Virus record (IMG/VR): IMGVR_UViG_3300033388_001619
Coordinates: 1 to 31,962 of that record
Strand: one strand, 5' to 3'
DNA from: a virus
DNA length: 31,962 nt
Under the pieces are notes generated by a model. It was not told where the DNA came from, did no database searches, and saw nothing but the letters and a program-made list of their open reading frames with translations. This document shows positions 9,843 through 31,962 of this stretch, one piece after another. Each line of letters starts with the position of its first letter. The first letter of the stretch is position 1. Made by a program: the position numbers and the translations under genes.

Positions 9843-10886
9843 ATGCCAAAAGTACAAACATTAGAAGAATTGAAAAAAGAAAATGAAGCTTTAGCACAGC
9901 AGGATGATGACAGTCAGGATGATGACAGTCAGGATGATGACAGTCAGGATGATGACAGTCAGGATGATGACAGTCAGGATGATGACAGTCAGGATGACGT
10001 CAGTCAGGATGATGACAGTCAGGATGATAACAGTCAGGATGATAACAATGTACCTGATTTTATGCAGTCGGATACAAAAGGCGATATGCCTATTGCAGCA
10101 CATATTAAAACTAAGCATAAATTGAAAGGACGTATATCTGATCAGAAAGATGAGATTGCTGACTTAAAAACTGCTATTGCAACTATGCAATCTGCTCAAT
10201 CTACGCAGTATACTAAACCGGAAACTTTAGTTTTACCAAAAGAAGAGGATTACGAAACTAGAGATGAGCATAACGCCGCAGTTGCTGAATATAATACTAA
10301 ACATATGGAGGCTGTACTCAGTTCTCATAATTCACAAAATAGAGCAGAGACTTTTATTAGGGATATCAAAAAGAAAAGAGAAAAGGCTGTCGATGCCCAT
10401 TATGATAGAGCAGGGGAATTAATTGCTGAGAATGGTATTGACCCGGAGTTATATAAAGCATCAGATACTATAGTTAGAGAAGCCATTAATTCTATTATTA
10501 ACGGCAAAGGAAGTGAAGTAACTGATCATATTATATCTATATTAGGTAAAGGATCAGAAAAGGTTGTATTTTATTTAGGCCGCAATAAAGGAGCTTTATC
10601 GGAGTTTAAAAGTTTATTAGCCGAAGATAAAACAGGTCTAAGTGCAGCTATCTTTTTGGGAGGGCATAAACAGAGACTAAATAAAACAACCAAAGGAAAA
10701 CAAAAATCAAATGCTCGTAAGCCGTCTAAAAATATTAAGGGCGATAGCAGTAAAACAAATGCTAATTTATCACGTAAATTTAAAAAGATATATGATACTG
10801 CTCATAAAAGTCAAAATATTCAAGCAGCTTATAATGCTAAAAAGGAAGCTAAAATAGCAGGCATAGATGTAAATGGTTGGATATAA
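9843..10886 (+). CDS. Scaffolding protein, P22 gp8-like, with acidic repeat
   Basis: 347 residues. Residues 20-69 are ten tandem copies of QDDDS or close variants, an extremely acidic low-complexity segment. The remainder is helical: a coiled-coil-like part (KGRISDQKDEIADLKTAIA), a middle part with IDPELYKASDTIVREAINS as in P22-type scaffolds, and a strongly basic C-terminal region (KTTKGKQKSNARKPSKNIKG, then NLSRKFKKIYDTAH). In P22 a basic C-terminal helix-turn-helix binds the coat protein. Scaffold directs prohead assembly and then exits. The position between portal and coat fits exactly. The repeat number is probably variable between relatives. Confidence 0.8.
   Translation: MPKVQTLEELKKENEALAQQDDDSQDDDSQDDDSQDDDSQDDDSQDDDSQDDVSQDDDSQDDNSQDDNNVPDFMQSDTKGDMPIAAHIKTKHKLKGRISDQKDEIADLKTAIATMQSAQSTQYTKPETLVLPKEEDYETRDEHNAAVAEYNTKHMEAVLSSHNSQNRAETFIRDIKKKREKAVDAHYDRAGELIAENGIDPELYKASDTIVREAINSIINGKGSEVTDHIISILGKGSEKVVFYLGRNKGALSEFKSLLAEDKTGLSAAIFLGGHKQRLNKTTKGKQKSNARKPSKNIKGDSSKTNANLSRKFKKIYDTAHKSQNIQAAYNAKKEAKIAGIDVNGWI
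9900..10049 (+). repeat. Ten 15-bp tandem repeats in the scaffold gene
   Basis: Ten direct copies of CAGGATGATGACAGT. The first six (9900-9989) are identical. Unit 7 has GATGACGTC, unit 8 is again perfect, and units 9 and 10 carry GATGATAAC. Each unit encodes QDDDS (or QDDVS, QDDNS, QDDNN). The identity of the 5' units suggests recent slippage expansion, with older divergent units at the 3' end. The repeat also creates long open frames in other registers, which are artefacts. Confidence 0.95.
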
Positions 10887-11021: not shown

Positions 11022-12299
11022 ATGGCACTAAGTGCAGGAAAAATAGCAGAGGTAATGTTTGAAAAGTTTAAGGAGACTCATGGAAAACAGACTCAGTTAA
11101 TTGAGTTAACTAATTATCATGAGCCAAATAGTACTACTATGCAAGACGCAAGTAATGTTATTTGGTATCCCGTTCAGCAGCATGCACCGATCATATCAGG
11201 TTGGGACCTTACAGGAGAAGAAACTGGAATAATTGAAGAAACCTATCCAGCGGTTCTTGGGGATCCTAACAATGACTTTGTTAAGATGCGCGCAGATGAC
11301 TTAAGGACTCAAAGGTTTTGGGAACGAAGAGGTACACAGTCTGGTAAACGACAGGCTTCCGAGCTTAATAAAGATATTGCAACTGCAATAGCTACGCAAG
11401 CTACTCTGTTTTATCGTTCCAATGCTACGAGTGGATATGATTTTATTGCACAAGGTCAGGCAATAATGAATGAGAGGCAGGGATATTACGAACAGCCTCA
11501 TTTTATTTTAAATGATCGTACTAACTTAACATTTGGTGAGGACTTAGCAGGTCGTCAGACCCTTCAGGGTCGTCCTGAAGATACATGGAAGACTGGTCAG
11601 ATTGGCACAAATATTGCAGGTTTTAATGTCCACGTAGGTTCTTACCTTCCCAATCTTACTGGTGGGGCTGATCCTGCTGTTACAGTAACAGGTGCTCAAG
11701 CATTTGTACCTTCAGGTGGTACCGTTAATGCTACTACTAAAGTTGTAACAAACGTTGATTATCGTGAAGCAAGTCTTGTTGTTAATGATTCTTCTCTTGT
11801 AACTGTTGGAGATAAATTCCAGCTTGAGAATAGCGCAGTGGCTATTGATGCTATTGGTCTTGAGGATAAAACTAATACTAACCAGCCTATGACATTTACT
11901 GTTATAGAAATTACTGATAGTACTCATATTAAAATTTATCCTAAACCGATTGCAGCAGACCAAGCAGCTATTACCACTCTTGAAGCAGCATATGCAAATA
12001 TCGATACTGCAATACTGAATGCGGCTACTCTTACAAGACTTAATACTGATGCTAGTGCAAAGACTAACTTGTTCTTTGATCAGGCGGCAGTTGAAGTAAT
12101 TGGTGGAAGTATTCCTGCTCAGCTTTTTAAAGAGTACGAGGGTATGAAGGTTATAACTGATACATTGTCGAATGGCCTTCAGTTATACATGGTTTATGAT
12201 GGTAATCTTGTTGATATGACTTTTAGATACAGGATTTTCATATGGTACGGAATTACAATATGTAATCCATCAATGTGTGGAGTTGCAATATCTTATTAA
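11022..12299 (+). CDS. Major capsid (coat) protein, P22 gp5-like
   Basis: 425 residues, versus 430 in P22 coat. Landmarks shared with P22 gp5: MALSAGKIA at the start, NVIWYPVQQHAPI, GWDLTGEETG, NDFVKMRADDLRTQ, the downstream GRPEDTWKTGQIGTNIAGF, and the end RYRIFIWYGITICNP with CGVAIS. Residues about 223-310 (VTVTGAQAFVPSGG through FTVIEITDSTHIKIYPKP) correspond to the inserted I-domain that stabilises P22 coat. The rest is the HK97-type fold. The RBS AAAGGGAG precedes the ATG. Many copies build the icosahedral shell around the scaffold. Flanked by a structured 5' gap and a 3' hairpin, as expected for a highly expressed late gene. Confidence 0.92.
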   Translation: MALSAGKIAEVMFEKFKETHGKQTQLIELTNYHEPNSTTMQDASNVIWYPVQQHAPIISGWDLTGEETGIIEETYPAVLGDPNNDFVKMRADDLRTQRFWERRGTQSGKRQASELNKDIATAIATQATLFYRSNATSGYDFIAQGQAIMNERQGYYEQPHFILNDRTNLTFGEDLAGRQTLQGRPEDTWKTGQIGTNIAGFNVHVGSYLPNLTGGADPAVTVTGAQAFVPSGGTVNATTKVVTNVDYREASLVVNDSSLVTVGDKFQLENSAVAIDAIGLEDKTNTNQPMTFTVIEITDSTHIKIYPKPIAADQAAITTLEAAYANIDTAILNAATLTRLNTDASAKTNLFFDQAAVEVIGGSIPAQLFKEYEGMKVITDTLSNGLQLYMVYDGNLVDMTFRYRIFIWYGITICNPSMCGVAISY

Positions 12300-23700: not shown

Positions 23701-24064
23701 AGATAGCCCTGAAAAGATGAAAGCCATGCATATGGTTAGACAAGCAGTTGAAGCTCTAGAAGCAAACCCTACTGTACCAAAAGGAACTGGTATAGAACGT
23801 GCTGAGAATTTAGTAGCTTACTTAGCAAGACATCATGGTTTTTCAAAGAGTGCTATAGCTAATATTGCCGCAGCTACTATTAGCCCGTTAAAAAATTATT
23901 CTAAAGATCAAGTAAATGGGCTAATCAATAGAGCTTTACTTGATCCTGAGTTGGCTTATAGTTTAATATATGCATCTAAAAGTAAACAAGCAACAGCTAT
24001 CCAACCTTTGATGAATTCTCTTAAGTCATTAGGACTAGCTACACAAGGAGGAAATAATGAGTAA
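20735..24064 (+). CDS. Large putative ejected protein, gp16 position, polyvalent-like domains
   Basis: 1109 residues, the longest gene here and far longer than P22 gp16 (609). DEFGGIIE occurs at residues 4-11 and again at 64-71. Residues about 92-150 are Gly/Ala-rich and hydrophobic (GLGAAGGTIIGGTGGLAGG), fit for membrane insertion. Long helical regions follow. Around 515-570, GPDGKIYTGAIHVDAY plus GFVTDSGKYLTREEA match a module I associate with phage polyvalent proteins. Residues about 787-915 resemble an ADP-ribosyltransferase-like fold: LYHTTSS at 788-794, a middle TFAIDPKS, and the end RGYEGLKFDNE with E912. Gene order suggests it travels with DNA into the host. A host-modifying activity is possible but unproven. 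It overlaps the tailspike start by 8 nt. Confidence 0.7.
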   Translation: MAFDEFGGIIEDGKEVLSVDADIFSDSTILDEPNVMIPKQLTPPITKESRGAMGSWGTKDVQTDEFGGIIETDSFGKDTSNIKQLISQYQRPILQGLGAAGGTIIGGTGGLAGGPAAPITSPLGAVAGSAGGFAIADQLADIFDQMLGVREPQPMMLDLLDSAEDLAMGATFEMGGQATIPGVKFLGKGLKYIPGAVPLGQTLKSWGKDLMGIVPKSAEGVEKKAGDVLAALTHKGPLIVKNTEKARALEEAIPGLKFNLAQQTGDPGVIKFAKVANASAGDIAVAQAEQTASNTKAINDFIKKTKGAGTIEDVVKPLATKEKQIGAIAEGAKETLEQETSALSSQMTPINIDDTIKAELQASEDLMRKEASRMFEAVPQQELSAKKLYQDFKSILKPKHRAEGTDKFPAILRRELTEAKKAKTDVTNLKELQGLRSEILEDLRQAKEKNYPRSLRKRLSQSVAAIDDLLTKEGGGVSNPQAKLDSLIKQTPSSRLRDIYKNLRKVVHPDRVEKITKAATKGPDGKIYTGAIHVDAYMKIPNWKLLNMNKLDSGFVTDSGKYLTREEASILQGSSEMLDLIEIADGTLKLPGQSLAELLTKTSKSTQGSKELKQAQQFFKKNVIDKYAGTSEALLKGDADASSYFKSGIKGQQAAKEFNQALGDNATAKVALKQHINQDLLDKALVPKTGELTKASLNRWLKNNKYALDELGMTKEYDSIVKAQTKADSALIASKEFEKSSASQMLNADINEAITKAFAKGSKEKAAKQLMQHFEGIKSGLPDDPNILYHTTSSKLKGNKPDFDAYYGNKEWTETFAIDPKSKEVLDFGENTFAIRAPSNAKIKDLKDGTQDALEIMEEVASKNHVDAAYSKKILEGDEIAIQEFYEDWANADHLLDAAKKRGYEGLKFDNEHYLSKRLSKRAKAIPTKISKEVKPNKKAIAGLQNAMVDKVVSEVPLGVVDEVTPLLTSKNITNNLKQYDPALKVVFKDSPEKMKAMHMVRQAVEALEANPTVPKGTGIERAENLVAYLARHHGFSKSAIANIAAATISPLKNYSKDQVNGLINRALLDPELAYSLIYASKSKQATAIQPLMNSLKSLGLATQGGNNE

Positions 24065-26246
24065 CATAGTTAGACTTGGACCAACATATTTTCCAGCAAC
24101 AGATAAAGGGAAACCAGTATCTAACGGCTCTATATATGTTGGTGAGCCAGACACTGATCCAGAAATAGTAGGTAATCAAAAACAAGTGAGTGCTTTACAA
24201 GAAGATACGACCACCGTAGAAATATCTCAGCCTATTAGTACTAACGCGGGTGGTACCCCTACTTATAACGGCTCACCAGTTACTCTATTAGTAGAGGGAA
24301 GATATTCTCTTAAAGTACTAGATAGTAAGGGCGCTCAAGTTTACTATGTTCCTGATACTCCATTACCTAATGCAGCTACGGCTAGAAAATTCTTATCAGA
24401 TTATGATGGTTCTATGTCAGATGCTATAACAGATATAGGCGTCACAGAAACTACTTTAGTAATAGATGTTCAGCCAGATATTATACAAATTGGAATAACA
24501 TCTCCTGCCACATTAACAATAGACTTATGGGCGCCTTTTTATTTTGAAGATGATGGTAATAATGCTAATTTTAATATATTAGGAACATTTTTAGTAGCAC
24601 CTAAACAATACGCTTTTAATTGGGGCAATGGTATTGGACTTGTAACTTTTGGAATAAATAGTGTTGGTACAGTTTATACTCAATGGTTTGGGGCTATAGC
24701 TGATGGAGTTACAGATGATACAACAGTTATACAGCAAGCTATAGACGCTGCAACTGATACAGTAAGTAAAGTAAAATTAACCGCGGGTACCTATCTTGTA
24801 AGTGATATTGGAACTACTGGTTTTGTACTAACTTTACCAAGCAATTTTACTTTGGAAGGTGAGGGATATAATAATACTACTATACTAATGGACGATAATA
24901 CAGACATCTATGCTATATACGCTACAGGTCAAGATAATATTACAGTAAAAGATTTTAAAATAGATGGAAACAAAGCTAATCAAACAGACAACACCCAAGC
25001 TGATGGTATAAAGTTTTTAGAAGGTTTAAACCTTACGTTTGAGAATTTATGGATTCATGACACTCGAGGTCACGGTATTCATGTCAATAATGGTGCGATT
25101 TTAGACACTGATCAAAAGATGACTATAAAAGGTTGTAGATTTACAGATTGCGGGTGGGCTAGAGATGACACTTATGGCAGCAATCTTGCTATTACTGATG
25201 GTAACGGTGTTACAATATCAGATTTTCATTCTTCTGGAACGGCAAAAGCAGGGCTTAGGTTTTCCGGTAAAAACTATACTATAACAAACTTTGTAATTCA
25301 TGATTGTGGAAACGGCGGCCTTGTTCCTGTTAGTGGTGATTTTAGTGATTCAACAATATCAAACGGTGTTTCATATGATTCGTCAGGGACACACGGCAAC
25401 GAAGACGGCATACATTTCTTAGATATCGAAAGAGTTACAATTTCAAATGTGGTTTGTTATGGGAACAAAGGAGCGGGAATACTACTTGTTAATGGCTGTT
25501 CTGACATTACTATTAATGGTTGTATTCTTTACAATAATGGGCAAAGTGCACAATCTATTACAGCTATTACTGGCCGTGATGGTATCACAATAAAAGATGA
25601 AGGCAACGGAAACGAAAACATAATAATAACCAATTGTATATTTTTAGACAACCAAGGAACGCCAACTCAAGATTATGGAATTTTAGTTCAGGATAATTCT
25701 GATAATATTTTAATTGCAAATAACATGTTTCGAAGTGCTCAAGTATCGGGCCTATATACAGATACAGAGTCAAATACACTTGTTGTTCGAGATAATCAGG
25801 GTTTAAGTGAAATAATAGATGGAACTGTCACTGAAACAGTTACAGGAACAGTTAATAAAACTGATATGTCAACCATAACCATTTCTGCAAATGAAGTTCC
25901 TAAATTTGGAATTATAAAGATTAGAGCTTCAGGAACTTTCTCAGGTGCAAACGATACAAAAACAATTCGCCTTGAAATTGGCTCAGAAGTTCTTGATGGT
26001 ATTTCAGCTGATGCTGGATCAGAAGATAAATGGACTTTAGAAGCTGAGGTTACTATTGTAAATGCTGCAAAAACACAGCAAAGAATTTGGGTAAGAACAT
26101 GGGAAGGAATTGTTATGGATATAAATTCCTTTGACACAGCTACAGAAGATATGACCAGTGATATGATTATAAAAATTACCGGGCAGCTTGCTCATACTGA
26201 CGATTCAATAGTTCAAAGATATTGGGAAGTAACCAGGGTTAAATAA
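24057..26246 (+). CDS. Tailspike with P22-type head-binding domain and beta-helix
   Basis: 729 residues. Residues about 8-105 match the P22 tailspike head-binding domain: LGPTYFPATDKGKPVSNGSI, YVGEPDTDP, NQKQV, VEISQPISTNAGGTPTYNG and YSLKVLDSKGAQVYYV. Residues about 205-590 are a right-handed parallel beta-helix beginning with WFGAIADGVTDDTTVIQQAI, the pectate-lyase-3-like opening of many phage depolymerase spikes. Residues about 600-729 are a separate beta domain that may trimerise or bind sugar. It would attach to the gp10-like hub and recognise or cut host surface polysaccharide; active-site acids cannot be assigned by eye. GGAGG precedes the start. The beta-helix distal half is richer in G+C than the head-binding part. 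Confidence 0.88.
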   Translation: MSNIVRLGPTYFPATDKGKPVSNGSIYVGEPDTDPEIVGNQKQVSALQEDTTTVEISQPISTNAGGTPTYNGSPVTLLVEGRYSLKVLDSKGAQVYYVPDTPLPNAATARKFLSDYDGSMSDAITDIGVTETTLVIDVQPDIIQIGITSPATLTIDLWAPFYFEDDGNNANFNILGTFLVAPKQYAFNWGNGIGLVTFGINSVGTVYTQWFGAIADGVTDDTTVIQQAIDAATDTVSKVKLTAGTYLVSDIGTTGFVLTLPSNFTLEGEGYNNTTILMDDNTDIYAIYATGQDNITVKDFKIDGNKANQTDNTQADGIKFLEGLNLTFENLWIHDTRGHGIHVNNGAILDTDQKMTIKGCRFTDCGWARDDTYGSNLAITDGNGVTISDFHSSGTAKAGLRFSGKNYTITNFVIHDCGNGGLVPVSGDFSDSTISNGVSYDSSGTHGNEDGIHFLDIERVTISNVVCYGNKGAGILLVNGCSDITINGCILYNNGQSAQSITAITGRDGITIKDEGNGNENIIITNCIFLDNQGTPTQDYGILVQDNSDNILIANNMFRSAQVSGLYTDTESNTLVVRDNQGLSEIIDGTVTETVTGTVNKTDMSTITISANEVPKFGIIKIRASGTFSGANDTKTIRLEIGSEVLDGISADAGSEDKWTLEAEVTIVNAAKTQQRIWVRTWEGIVMDINSFDTATEDMTSDMIIKITGQLAHTDDSIVQRYWEVTRVK

Positions 26247-26339
26247 TCAGTAATATTTTAGTGCTTGTAATAGTTTTTCTTGATTAGCATCTTTCATCTT
26301 AAGTACTTTAATGACTCGTTCATCAATCCTTTGTTCCAC
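26247..26339 (-). pseudogene. Out-of-frame C-terminal remnant of the SNF2 helicase
   Basis: Read on the - strand in the frame ending TGA at 26249-26247, the DNA encodes VEQRIDERVIKVLKMKD, then ANQEKLLQALKYY and a stop. This is the characteristic last segment of phage SNF2-type helicases (E-x-R-I-D-E-R-V and a final L-L-x-A-L). It has no start or RBS of its own and lies in a different frame from the intact part of the helicase gene (26294-27400), whose product stops 17 codons into it. It ends 1 nt after the tailspike stop, where an intact helicase gene would be expected to finish. It is best read as the displaced 3' end of that gene after an internal deletion. Confidence 0.75.
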
Positions 26340-27400
26340 TTTCGGATAAGTATATTAGCCTCTTCATTTGAAGTTCTACCCGCTATACAAGGTATCTCTT
26401 TTTTAAAAAACTCTTGTAGCATTATTAGTTCAAATTTAAACTGTATTGGACATAATATTGGTCGCCCTACCGCAGTATCAATCAGCTCTTTTAAAGCTTC
26501 ACACTTTATATTATGTAATGGATAAAATTCTCCTTTGGCAGCGTCTGTATAAACCGCACCTTGTATAAACTGTCGTAGCTTCATAGCGAGTGCTGCAGCA
26601 TTAAATGCAGTAGCTACTGAACCTTGAAACTCTAAAATAAAATCATCTTCAAGATCTTTATATTGCTGCCTTAATTTTTCTGACAATGCCAAAGGAATCT
26701 CATTATAAGTAACTTCAGGCATTTTAAGATGGTCATTAGCATCCAGTCTATAAGTTATCGGTTTTATTAAATCCTTGATTCTTTCGTATGCTCCTTGCCT
26801 TATAGTAGTTTTATACAGTGGTGGTCCGGTATAATTAAAATAAGTTCCCCTAAAACGGTGGTAACTACTGAATAATCGCTGACCTTGATCTAACATATAA
26901 TACTGAGACCATAATTCATAATAGCCATTAGGGGAGGGTGTGGCTGATAGACATAATCTATTTGGTCCCCATAGTGGTATCATCTTTTTGAGTAATTTAA
27001 ATCGCAAAGTGGTAGGCGACTTAATCATAGAAGATTCATCTATTATAAGAGTCCTCTGTTTCCACGTAAGTTTCGATGCTGCCACTTTATTAAAGAACCA
27101 TTTCATACCATCATAATTAAGTAGTATTATATGAGATCTTAATGCTTGTCTAAATAGCCTATCTTTATCAGGACCATGTAGTATAGTATAAGTTAACTCA
27201 GGTGCCCAGTTAACTATCTCATCCGGCCACGTATTGTATATAACCTTTAGTGGTGCAAAGACTATGGCAGGTTTCTTAGTTCGCCTAATAACTTCTAGAG
27301 CGACCGCGGTTTTACCTAGCCCTAAATCCAAAGCAAGAAAGACAGCTTTATTAACTATACTAAACTTTATGGCATTCTTTTGGTATTGATGTAATTGCAT
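26294..27400 (-). CDS. SNF2/DEAD-type helicase, truncated in lobe 2
   Basis: 368 residues. Lobe 1 is intact: QYQ at 5-7, Walker A DLGLGKTA at 25-32, motif Ia FAPLKVIYNTW at 48-58, DEGH-type box IIDES at 119-123, and motif III LSATPSPNG at 151-159. Lobe 2 begins normally (QLRQ-type helix, GRPILCPIQFKFEL, then ANILIRKWNKG near 351-361) but then ends abruptly with LMNESLKYLR. Motifs V and VI, with the arginine finger and the usual R-x-G-Q, are missing; the usual C-terminal tail is present downstream in another frame. An ATPase-dead or dominant product is likely (inference). In phages these proteins act in DNA replication or recombination. It starts right after the small gene at 27401 (TAAATG). 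Confidence 0.8.
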   Translation of the reverse strand: MQLHQYQKNAIKFSIVNKAVFLALDLGLGKTAVALEVIRRTKKPAIVFAPLKVIYNTWPDEIVNWAPELTYTILHGPDKDRLFRQALRSHIILLNYDGMKWFFNKVAASKLTWKQRTLIIDESSMIKSPTTLRFKLLKKMIPLWGPNRLCLSATPSPNGYYELWSQYYMLDQGQRLFSSYHRFRGTYFNYTGPPLYKTTIRQGAYERIKDLIKPITYRLDANDHLKMPEVTYNEIPLALSEKLRQQYKDLEDDFILEFQGSVATAFNAAALAMKLRQFIQGAVYTDAAKGEFYPLHNIKCEALKELIDTAVGRPILCPIQFKFELIMLQEFFKKEIPCIAGRTSNEEANILIRKWNKGLMNESLKYLR

Positions 27401-28232: not shown

Positions 28233-28525
28233 TATAATACATCCTTTTTAAGTAAATCGTTATCAAGTAGAACTTGAGTTAAGCTATCACAAAATTGTGA
28301 AAATTCTGTATGATCCATACTAAATAATTGTTTACCTTCTCTTCCTTCATATCTAAAATATAATTGGGCTAAAGTAGCTTCGCATAATTCATGAATAAGA
28401 TCTTCCCAAGGATCTGAAGTTCCAGATGATATGTTTAGAATTTTAGTATGAAAATTAAAAGTAGAACCCCTTTTAAATCTAGTAACTTTCCATTTATGCC
28501 CAAATAATTTAAGGCTTTTAATCAT
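28232..28525 (-). CDS. Small metallopeptidase-like protein (HExxE)
   Basis: 97 residues. The core WEDLIHELCEATL places H45, E46 and E49, with a possible third ligand at H72 in MDHTEF. The pattern, an N-terminal beta-hairpin (KLFGHKWKVTR) followed by LIHELCEA, a His-containing helix and a final FCDSLTQVLLDND, is recurrent in phage early operons and resembles a minimal zincin or ImmA/SprT-like fold. Whether it is a protease or only a metal-binding relic is not known. It overlaps the ligase stop and the HTH start by one base each, so all three genes are translationally coupled. Confidence 0.6.
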   Translation of the reverse strand: MIKSLKLFGHKWKVTRFKRGSTFNFHTKILNISSGTSDPWEDLIHELCEATLAQLYFRYEGREGKQLFSMDHTEFSQFCDSLTQVLLDNDLLKKDVL

Positions 28526-29673
28526 TAGTCTTTATCCTCCCTGAAACCTAAAAATCGAGGATGACGTAAACTGCCCTTATCGGTTTCTTCCATATATAGA
28601 ACTTCAATGGTCTTAAACATAATCTTATCGGGCTTCTGCCAAAAGGAACTTCTTTGGAAATCGCTAAAGCCTCCTCCGACTCTAACTTTATGACCATTGT
28701 ATTCTACAATAACTCCACCTAACCTATTCGTATACTTTCCTTCACCTTCATAGATATCCATAATTCTGAGATCAACACTTAAGACTTCTTTCATCTTCAT
28801 CCAGTCGTAAGATCTTGTACCCTTGTACTGATAGTCAAAAGGTTTAATTACAGACCCTTCATATCCTGCTTTTCTACAAGCTTGATAAAAACGTAATATA
28901 GAATTTTGCCCACTTAACTGCTTATGAATTACTGCTCTTACGTTAAACTTAATAAAATTTAAATCTTCTAGTATAGATAGTCTATCAATGAATCTACCTT
29001 TGTGTTCTGGTAAATCAAATATATGAAATATAGCATTTGGTGTAAAATTGCCATTTCGTATTAGACCAGACCCTTCTTGAAATGACTTACCTTTTACTAT
29101 TAGTTCGCCATCTAGTACGTCTGTAATACTAGAAAGAGATTTCTGAAGTCGCTTTAATCCTTTATAGATATGTCCATTACGAGAATAGAAATTACCATTC
29201 TTATAAATAGTACGAACGCCATCTATTTTAGGTGAACCAAAGCATGGAAATTTAACTCTCTTTGGTTCAAATATCTTAGCAAGCATAACATCATGAGTAG
29301 GTATTAAATTAGGAAACACCTTATTGATAGTCTTTGCCCCCATACCAAACCTAAGATCCTTATTCAGTATCCGTTTGAATAACTCTCCAGACTTAGGAGT
29401 CATGATACTTATATTAGTGTCAACTATACTATCAGCATCAAGTCCACTAAGATTTCTAGACGATAGCATTTCTAATATAGCTAAAGTATTATGCGTAAAT
29501 ACAAATTTACCTAAGCCCATAGCTTTACTAGTTTGATGATACTTAATATAAGGATTATACGCTGCAGCTAAATATTCCTTTATATCAGCTGTCTTAAGCA
29601 TACGCTGTTTTTGATTACCGCTAGCTCTTGCTATGTCTTCTATACGATCAAACGCCATATCACTGTTTATCAT
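28525..29673 (-). CDS. ATP-dependent DNA ligase
   Basis: 382 residues. Nucleotidyltransferase motifs are in order: motif I PKIDGVR at 148-154 with adenylated K149, motif III-like LDGELIVKG followed by IFHIFDL, motif IV YEGSVIKP, and motif V YDWMKMK. The C-terminal OB domain includes DLRIMDIYEGEGKYTNRLGG and ends RHPRFLGFREDK, as in phage ligases. The N-terminal 130 residues are a helical DNA-binding part. It seals nicks during phage replication using ATP. The start at 29673 has AAGGAGG 7 nt upstream and lies 14 nt inside the upstream nuclease gene. All catalytic motifs are present. Confidence 0.92.
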   Translation of the reverse strand: MINSDMAFDRIEDIARASGNQKQRMLKTADIKEYLAAAYNPYIKYHQTSKAMGLGKFVFTHNTLAILEMLSSRNLSGLDADSIVDTNISIMTPKSGELFKRILNKDLRFGMGAKTINKVFPNLIPTHDVMLAKIFEPKRVKFPCFGSPKIDGVRTIYKNGNFYSRNGHIYKGLKRLQKSLSSITDVLDGELIVKGKSFQEGSGLIRNGNFTPNAIFHIFDLPEHKGRFIDRLSILEDLNFIKFNVRAVIHKQLSGQNSILRFYQACRKAGYEGSVIKPFDYQYKGTRSYDWMKMKEVLSVDLRIMDIYEGEGKYTNRLGGVIVEYNGHKVRVGGGFSDFQRSSFWQKPDKIMFKTIEVLYMEETDKGSLRHPRFLGFREDKD

Positions 29674-29956
29674 TTAATTCCTCCTTTAACGTGTTATAGA
29701 GTACATCTACCTTTTCTTTGGTATCGATTATAAGTACCTCATGGCCGAGCGTACGTAAAAGTCCAATTATTAAGTTCTGTAATTTTGTTGGAACTTTACC
29801 GGGAGCCTTACATTCAACAAACACAATCCGTCCTCGCGGGAGACAGCAAAGCCTATCAGGTATAGCCCTATTACTAGGTGATGAAAACTTATAAGCTTTA
29901 CCACCAAGCTTAGCTATCCTCCGCACTAAATACTGTTCTACGTCGCGTTCAAGCAT
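29660..29956 (-). CDS. VRR-NUC domain nuclease
   Basis: 98 residues, essentially a stand-alone VRR-NUC (PD-(D/E)xK) domain. Key residues: E7 in ERDVEQYL, D34 in IPDR, E48 and K50 in GRIVFVECKAPG, and a following Gln in KLQNLI, the classic order. In the family, stand-alone phage versions are thought to act as structure-specific nucleases in recombination or replication, often beside SNF2 helicases and polymerase genes, as here. The RBS AAGGAG lies 8 nt before the ATG. The end overlaps the ligase start by 14 nt. Confidence 0.9.
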   Translation of the reverse strand: MLERDVEQYLVRRIAKLGGKAYKFSSPSNRAIPDRLCCLPRGRIVFVECKAPGKVPTKLQNLIIGLLRTLGHEVLIIDTKEKVDVLYNTLKEELNDKQ

Positions 29957-30437: not shown

Positions 30438-30453
30438 TCTCCTTTTACATTTT
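30438..30453 (-). repeat. 16-bp stop/RBS junction repeat, copy 2
   Basis: Second copy of AAAATGTAAAAGGAGA: last codons and stop of the DNA polymerase gene plus the RBS of the 78-residue gene. Two neighbouring gene junctions sharing the same 16 bases suggests that a gene was inserted or duplicated between them by recombination at this sequence, or simply convergence on an AT-rich RBS. Confidence 0.8.
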
Positions 30454-31962
30454 TCTATATCTCTTTTCGATTACTCCATTTGCACTCAATGGAATTCCCT
30501 TAGCCCAATTGCCTACATTACACATTAGTTCAATTACGTGTTCTAAACAGTCATCGTCTTTATCTACTTCTAAAATTGGCTCATCATGTACTGAACCTAT
30601 TATCTTATAACCTGCGTCATCTAAATTATACTTGCCTTCTGTTAGTATATCATTAGATAACCCTTGTACTATATTCTCTATAAATCTTGCTGGTCTTACT
30701 TGTAGCCTCATCCACTTTTTAGTATAAGGATTAATACCCATAGCTTCTACTTCATTACCGTACATTCCTTCTTCTATAGTAGGATCATTATAATAAAGAG
30801 CTCGTCCTGATGGTAAAGTTAACTGTAGCCATCGATTACCATTTCTATCCTTAACTAATTTGAAACTGCATTTACATGTTTCAAAAGATCTTCCTGGAGC
30901 ACTAATAGCATTTACTGCCGCATCTCTACAGCTGTACCAAGAGGAAACTACTTTTCTATACTTCTTTCTATAACCATGTTTAACTGCGTTTATAGCTTCG
31001 TCATCTGACAATACTATTCCTGTTTCTTCTAAGACTTTCTTTTTAAATCCTCGCCATCCTAAGCCGTATCCACAACCAAGTATTAACTGTTTACCTAAAC
31101 GATATTCATCAGTATCTTTACTAATGTTACTATAGTCTTTATTAAACAAGAACGCGGCCATATCAATATACTGACTTAATCCTTCTTTTAGCAAAGCTAA
31201 GGCAACCTGATCATCCGCAACCCAAGCTAAACCGCAATTTTCTATAGAAGTATAGTCAACCATACAGATTCGTTTTCCTTTGGGAGCGCAAATCATTCCT
31301 CGTACTACAGATTTAGCCGCAGTTATAGGGTCATTCTCTATAACACTCATATCCTTAAATGAATCTATTATTGGTTGAGCATCTTTTACACCTGATCTTG
31401 CAAGACTATGTATTTGAAACCCCATGCCTGACCATCTACCAGTATTAGCACCATAATATCTTAAGTTATCATAAACCCTATTATTATATTCTAAGTCTAT
31501 AATCTTTTGATATTTAGCTGTAGACGACATTCCGCCTTCTTGCCTAAGTTGTAATACAAGTCTAGCATCATTTGGTAGAGATGTTTTAGCTAATAACTTT
31601 TCTACTGTAGCTGCTTGAAGATTAGGAGTTATAATACCTTTGTTTCTTAACCACTCAGTAATACGTTTTGCTTGGGTGGCTTTAGTAACTAGCCCATCTG
31701 TCAAACTTGGTAATAACTTATTTTGTTCTTCTTTATAAACATTAGTAAGGCGTGAAATAATTTTAGCTGCATCAATATCTACAGGAACTCCTGTTTGATT
31801 TATCTTACAAGTAAGTTCCCATTTCTTTTGTTCAGCTTCAGATAATTGTGATGCAGGTAAAGCTAAAATCATTTCATCTAAAGTATCCACATCTCTTTTA
31901 CAATACTCATGCATCTCCATAAGATCTGAATGAGTATAAATAAATGGTGGACAACAAATTAA
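30445..31962 (-). CDS. Family A DNA polymerase (partial, N-terminus beyond window)
   Basis: At least 505 residues; the frame stays open to the right edge, so the ATG at 31920 is internal. Near the edge DLMEMHEYCKRDVDTL is the Exo III motif of the 3'-5' proofreading exonuclease; the rest of that domain is outside. Then come the thumb and TGRWSGMGFQIHSLAR, motif A VDYTSIENCGLAW (catalytic Asp about 31257), motif B RLGKQLILGCGYGLGW (about 31100), and motif C VHDEP (His about 30588). It is therefore a catalytically complete Pol I-type replicative polymerase of the kind found in many podoviruses and temperate phages. It heads the - strand module seen here, followed by two small genes, VRR-NUC and ligase. 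Confidence 0.93.
   Translation of the reverse strand, partial: LICCPPFIYTHSDLMEMHEYCKRDVDTLDEMILALPASQLSEAEQKKWELTCKINQTGVPVDIDAAKIISRLTNVYKEEQNKLLPSLTDGLVTKATQAKRITEWLRNKGIITPNLQAATVEKLLAKTSLPNDARLVLQLRQEGGMSSTAKYQKIIDLEYNNRVYDNLRYYGANTGRWSGMGFQIHSLARSGVKDAQPIIDSFKDMSVIENDPITAAKSVVRGMICAPKGKRICMVDYTSIENCGLAWVADDQVALALLKEGLSQYIDMAAFLFNKDYSNISKDTDEYRLGKQLILGCGYGLGWRGFKKKVLEETGIVLSDDEAINAVKHGYRKKYRKVVSSWYSCRDAAVNAISAPGRSFETCKCSFKLVKDRNGNRWLQLTLPSGRALYYNDPTIEEGMYGNEVEAMGINPYTKKWMRLQVRPARFIENIVQGLSNDILTEGKYNLDDAGYKIIGSVHDEPILEVDKDDDCLEHVIELMCNVGNWAKGIPLSANGVIEKRYRKM

Follow-up and report, generated by a model that had tools for sequence, protein, structure and literature searches.

Among described systems, the gene analysed here is closest to the SNF2-type helicases of the phrog_62 family, intact copies of which (on contigs L012, L013, L014, L095, L103 and L108) are homologous to all 358 residues of its main frame and to a 26-residue tail behind it. 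Compared with these intact copies, the gene lacks 63–64 codons, which include motifs V and VI, and carries its tail out of frame. The best solved-structure match of a profile built from its clade was the catalytic core of Sulfolobus solfataricus SNF2/Rad54 (PDB 1z63; E 2e-27), by sequence the same two-lobe motor, which keeps the half of lobe 2 bearing motifs V and VI, whereas the protein described here has lost that half. The locus also resembles the ordinary deletion pseudogenes that illegitimate recombination leaves, with their single short deletion, broken frame and downstream remnant, except that its join has no identifiable exact repeat.

Results

The DNA studied, called the window throughout, is a virus record of 31,962 bases, a fragment whose portal, terminase and tailspike are P22-like. 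The record ends inside a gene for a family A DNA polymerase (30445..31962, minus strand; Pfam DNA_pol_A, E 1.6e-9); residues 133 onward of the relatives' polymerases align to the window edge, and about 133 N-terminal residues lie beyond it. On the minus strand the polymerase is followed by a small VRR-NUC-like nuclease, an ATP-dependent DNA ligase, small genes and the helicase, the gene order also seen in syntenic contigs that carry an intact phrog_62 helicase. The ligase (28525..29673, minus strand) is intact, matches phrog_114 (E 2.4e-99) and is syntenic in relatives. The nuclease gene (29660..29956, minus strand), also intact, shares 40–72% identity with its counterparts in syntenic relatives and had no match in the Pfam search; its name rests on sequence resemblance and gene position, and in Croceibacter phage P2559Y a VRR-NUC gene precedes the helicase. 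A gene for a tailspike-like protein with a P22 head-binding domain and a beta-helix (24057..26246, plus strand; Pfam Head_binding, E 3.1e-19; Beta_helix, E 5.6e-24) converges tail to tail with the helicase gene, its stop codon abutting that of the helicase tail, and the same convergent arrangement is present in L002 and L097. Elsewhere in the window, an ORF at 9843-10886 (plus strand), flanked by the portal gene and a gene at 11022-12299, has an acidic low-complexity stretch (9891-10050) in which some ten nearly perfect tandem repeats encode SQDDD.

The helicase ORF runs from 27400 to 26294 on the minus strand (368 codons) and its product ends in NILIRKWNKG-LMNESLKYLR-stop. Its first 358 codons (26327..27400, minus strand) read as a normal helicase as far as IRKWNKG, comprising motifs I, Ia, II and III and the beginning of the second RecA lobe (Pfam SNF2-rel_dom, E 5.3e-20; phrog_62, E 3.2e-90, profile positions 695–1050). 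We found no other lesion in the gene. Translation of the next segment (26294..26326, minus strand) gives the ten out-of-frame codons LMNESLKYLR and a premature stop. The family's C-terminal tail, IDERVIKVLKMKDANQEKLLQALKYY with its own stop, lies directly downstream at 26247..26327 on the minus strand; with the body in frame -3 and the tail pattern T[IV]DExV...LL.ALK in frame -2, the tail cannot be read in continuation of the body. This orphaned tail (IDERVIKVL...LLQALKYY) is 63% identical to residues 423–446 of the L002 helicase by tblastn, aligns with the L108 tail at 70% identity in a tblastn search (E<=1e-5), has 19 of 26 residues identical to that tail in direct comparison, and ends where the family ends. 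The account given by the sequence-only reading, of a normal helicase followed by ten unrelated residues and a stop, with the family tail immediately behind in another frame, was thus confirmed.

The remaining protein keeps Walker A (LGLGKT, within LDLGLGKT) and the DEx-box (DESS, within IIDESS). Motif V (GxxxNLQ) and motif VI (RLxRQGQ, with the catalytic arginines) were found neither in the protein nor anywhere in the window, and the Pfam domain Helicase_C, present in a relative, is absent from it. The earlier statement that the ATP-binding motifs survive and the arginine-finger region is gone therefore stands. A sensitive tblastn search did not find the missing segment elsewhere in the window. 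Approximately 19 window genes have matches in relatives, and of these only the helicase falls into two frames; this speaks against a sequence that is error-prone throughout.

The nature of the loss was evident from intact relatives. When the 447-residue helicase of the syntenic contig L002 was compared with the window by tblastn, residues 2–358 matched frame -3 and residues 423–446 matched frame -2, the two pieces meeting at base 26327. A search with the clade alignment defined a clade of ten members (L101–L109 and L111), including two contigs of 41–43 kb; all ten are complete, several were shown to be syntenic, and the nine measured are 51–67% identical to the window helicase. From the glycine of WNxG to the first residue of [IV]DE there are 64 codons in eight of the nine members measured and 63 in L108, and alignment to 1z63 places motifs V (GxxxNLQ) and VI (GRLxRQGQ) inside this segment. 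In the window these two landmarks share one base. Alignment to the relatives places the join at 26326..26329 (minus strand), where the left flank ends with GG(A) of the glycine codon and the right flank starts with (A)TT of IDERV. The loss amounts to 193 nt, or 190 on the L108 spacing, a frame-breaking length in either case; both figures are derived from the relatives' spacing rather than from the ancestor's own bases. Aligning the gene to complete phage SNF2 helicases, a check proposed together with an estimate of 60–80 missing residues, thus gave a gap of 63–64 codons that falls within that range. Relative to every relative found, the helicase gene is broken by a deletion, as the sequence-only reading held for motifs V and VI.

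We also looked for relatives in which a shorter, in-frame form is conserved, and found none: besides the ten intact clade members, there are 80 family loci whose matches stop no more than two residues short of the C-terminus. When viral contigs, a set that may leave out records very close to the window, were scanned for the exact DNA of the tail and of the left flank, no near-identical copy appeared, intact or deleted; a nucleotide search of a phage collection gave no match; and a search of genome contigs with the clade alignment gave no confirmed prophage relative. The larger relatives searched carry one SNF2 gene each.

Several variants of the helicase itself came to light in these comparisons. 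The helicase of L100 (contig 3300005613_003457, 14919-16313) has a 17-residue in-frame insertion at about residues 113–130, shortly before DESS, which other clade members in the alignment do not have. A PHROGs family of unknown function, phrog_11354 (116 positions), matches only the C-terminal part of the gene (residues 346–446 of the L012 helicase), and the existence of this separate family suggests that split or fragmented copies of the helicase gene occur in other phages. The alignments of several Salmonella-phage members start no earlier than residue 47, and the annotation of one describes it as an intein-containing helicase precursor, so this family may have an insertion hotspot around Walker A.

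Two family members (L042:1564 and L060:1570) have an in-frame stop in their Walker A loop, which reads DMGLG-stop-GKT. A scan for GAYATGGGNYTNGGNTGAGGNAARAC returned 36 viral contigs, in every case within an SNF2 helicase of the phrog_62 family. When any codon was allowed at the same place there were 44 cases, 36 with TGA, six with TAA and two with sense codons, and the two sense-codon proteins are not SNF2 helicases by translation. All 42 helicases with the two-codon insertion (L148–L189; for example L150:1575-1600 and L152:6378-6403, both minus strand) thus have a stop there, and the any-codon scan showed no SNF2 helicase with a sense codon at this position. In the 38 of these 42 contigs that are long enough, the downstream frame runs for 418–470 codons to the next stop. 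The stop-carrying helicases differ down to 44% identity; the 42 cases are not all independent, since some contigs are near-identical, and the 36 TGA cases represent 29 distinct contexts. That two different stops occur, always flanked by glycine, and that a hop would yield the canonical DMGLGKT suggests a candidate programmed in-frame stop hop from glycine codon to glycine codon, with readthrough of the stop as the alternative. According to a 2016 review, no natural in-frame stop hopping was known (PMC5009743). This side observation may merit more attention than the helicase deletion itself.

The sequence-only reading had taken the loss for a deletion between two short direct repeats of the bases at the join, on the ground that these bases encode both the end of RKWNKG and, as VEQR, the start of the family tail. 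We consider a deletion between two exact copies of this word, GTGGAACAAAGG, very improbable. The word occurs once in the window (26328-26339, minus strand) and fits the left flank exactly, where it encodes W-N-K-G; family columns at these positions show W in 65 of 65 members, N in 63 and G in 59, so that the join bases belong to the left flank. VEQR is their out-of-frame reading. Enumeration of all codings of K-W-N-K-G showed that the neighbouring frame can read only [V/M]-E-[Q/stop]-[R/G]; the left flank therefore dictates the VEQR before IDERV, which says nothing for a second repeat copy. Nor is VEQR how family tails begin. Directly ahead of the I/V of [IV]DE, 60 of 65 family members and all ten clade members have T and none has R, and two positions ahead none of the 65 has Q; the four residues preceding [IV]DE in the clade's ten members are MKDT, MKNT, MEDT, MEGT or IEDT. 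The last bases of the word, AGG, could come from the right flank only if the codon for this near-invariant T had been one for R. Two frames fitting one word are thus weak evidence for a repeat when the codons of one motif force the letters of the other.

Exact-repeat deletion would also lead one to expect GTGGAACAAAGGATTGATG in the right flank of a close intact relative. The right flanks of intact relatives, which stand in here for the direct ancestor, read ATGAAAGATACC, ATGGAAGATACT, ATGGAGGGAACA and the like; a second copy of GTGGAACAAAGG was sought in them and not found. Base-for-base comparison of these flanks with the window's left flank up to the join gave a suffix match of 0 in all seven relatives tested, and in intact relatives the longest exact repeats close to the ends of the segment measure 5–7 nt and are almost all out of register. 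A 7-nt repeat, GGAACAA (Gly-Thr as GGA-ACA, as in L108), was rejected, as deletion through it would give GGAACAATTGATG and the window has GGAACAAAGGATTGATG. A weaker point in favour of some role of homology is the right flank of L106, L107 and L111, which in register reads ATGGAAGAT and has TGGAA in common with the left flank, six bases off the join; the right flanks of L106 and L111 match the window word at 7 of 12 bases, a level that only 1.4–1.9% of the registers tested reach (7–22% for the other relatives). Judging from the family columns, exact homology at the join is probably 0–2 nt, made up of the A common to GGA and ATT and perhaps one G. Of the earlier interpretation, the loss of motifs V and VI with a tail left out of frame stood, and the 12-bp repeat as its cause did not; slippage on a short imperfect match such as TGGAA is possible.

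Discussion

The gene is probably an ordinary phage helicase gene that recently lost 193 nt in one illegitimate deletion (190 nt from an L108-like ancestor), although this join is known from one assembled contig. It is rather unlikely that the virus's helicase is intact and that a chimeric read or an amplification template switch joined the flanks in the library or assembly. Such an artefact would be in keeping with a single assembled record, with the lack of other decay in the gene and with ten intact clade relatives, among which a null allele would be unusual. Against it, no other conserved gene of the window is broken, and the 0–2 nt apparently shared across the join are far below the usual assembly k-mer. 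An overlap this short is too little for an assembler alone, so at least one read or template must already have contained the join; this points to a real variant or to an amplification chimera. Weighing these points, we hold a real deletion to be about twice as probable as an artefact.

The idea that the short form is functional, as a one-lobe ATP- and DNA-binding protein that regulates or competes with a host or rival helicase, seems to us more remote still than the exact-repeat deletion. The 358 undamaged codons would suit it, and RecA-like domain 1 of an SNF2 protein alone can bind ligands (PMC6019379), but no relative found has this form, the protein ends in ten frame-shifted residues, and the unused tail is still recognisable. 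Because the tail can still be recognised and nothing else in the gene is damaged, the lesion appears to be young, or to have arisen in the library.

The gene is an ordinary phrog_62 SNF2-type helicase that stands with the polymerase, the VRR-NUC-like nuclease and the ligase in the replication module of a P22-like phage. Comparison with relatives shows the loss, its size, its place and the change of frame; under the deletion that we prefer, a single event would have taken out the 64 codons that bear motifs V and VI, leaving the last 26 codons out of frame. The join would have been made with at most 0–2 nt of exact homology, perhaps aided by a nearby imperfect TGGAA-like match.

With its nucleotide- and DNA-binding motifs and without motifs V and VI, the product should bind ATP and is predicted not to hydrolyse it; on the loss of these motifs, ATPase and translocase activity is likewise predicted to be absent (PMC6019379). 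Rescue by frameshifting or bypass was rejected, as the joined frames would still miss motifs V and VI. The product is most likely dead and the gene a null allele, and annotating it as an active helicase should be avoided. The finding, a null allele of a common phage helicase seen in a single record, has little reach beyond its genome. Since only one SNF2 gene is present in each of the larger relatives searched, the phage, if the lesion is real, either manages without this helicase or has a substitute outside the fragment recorded here. A deletion both real and fixed would suggest that some P22-like phages can dispense with this SNF2 helicase.
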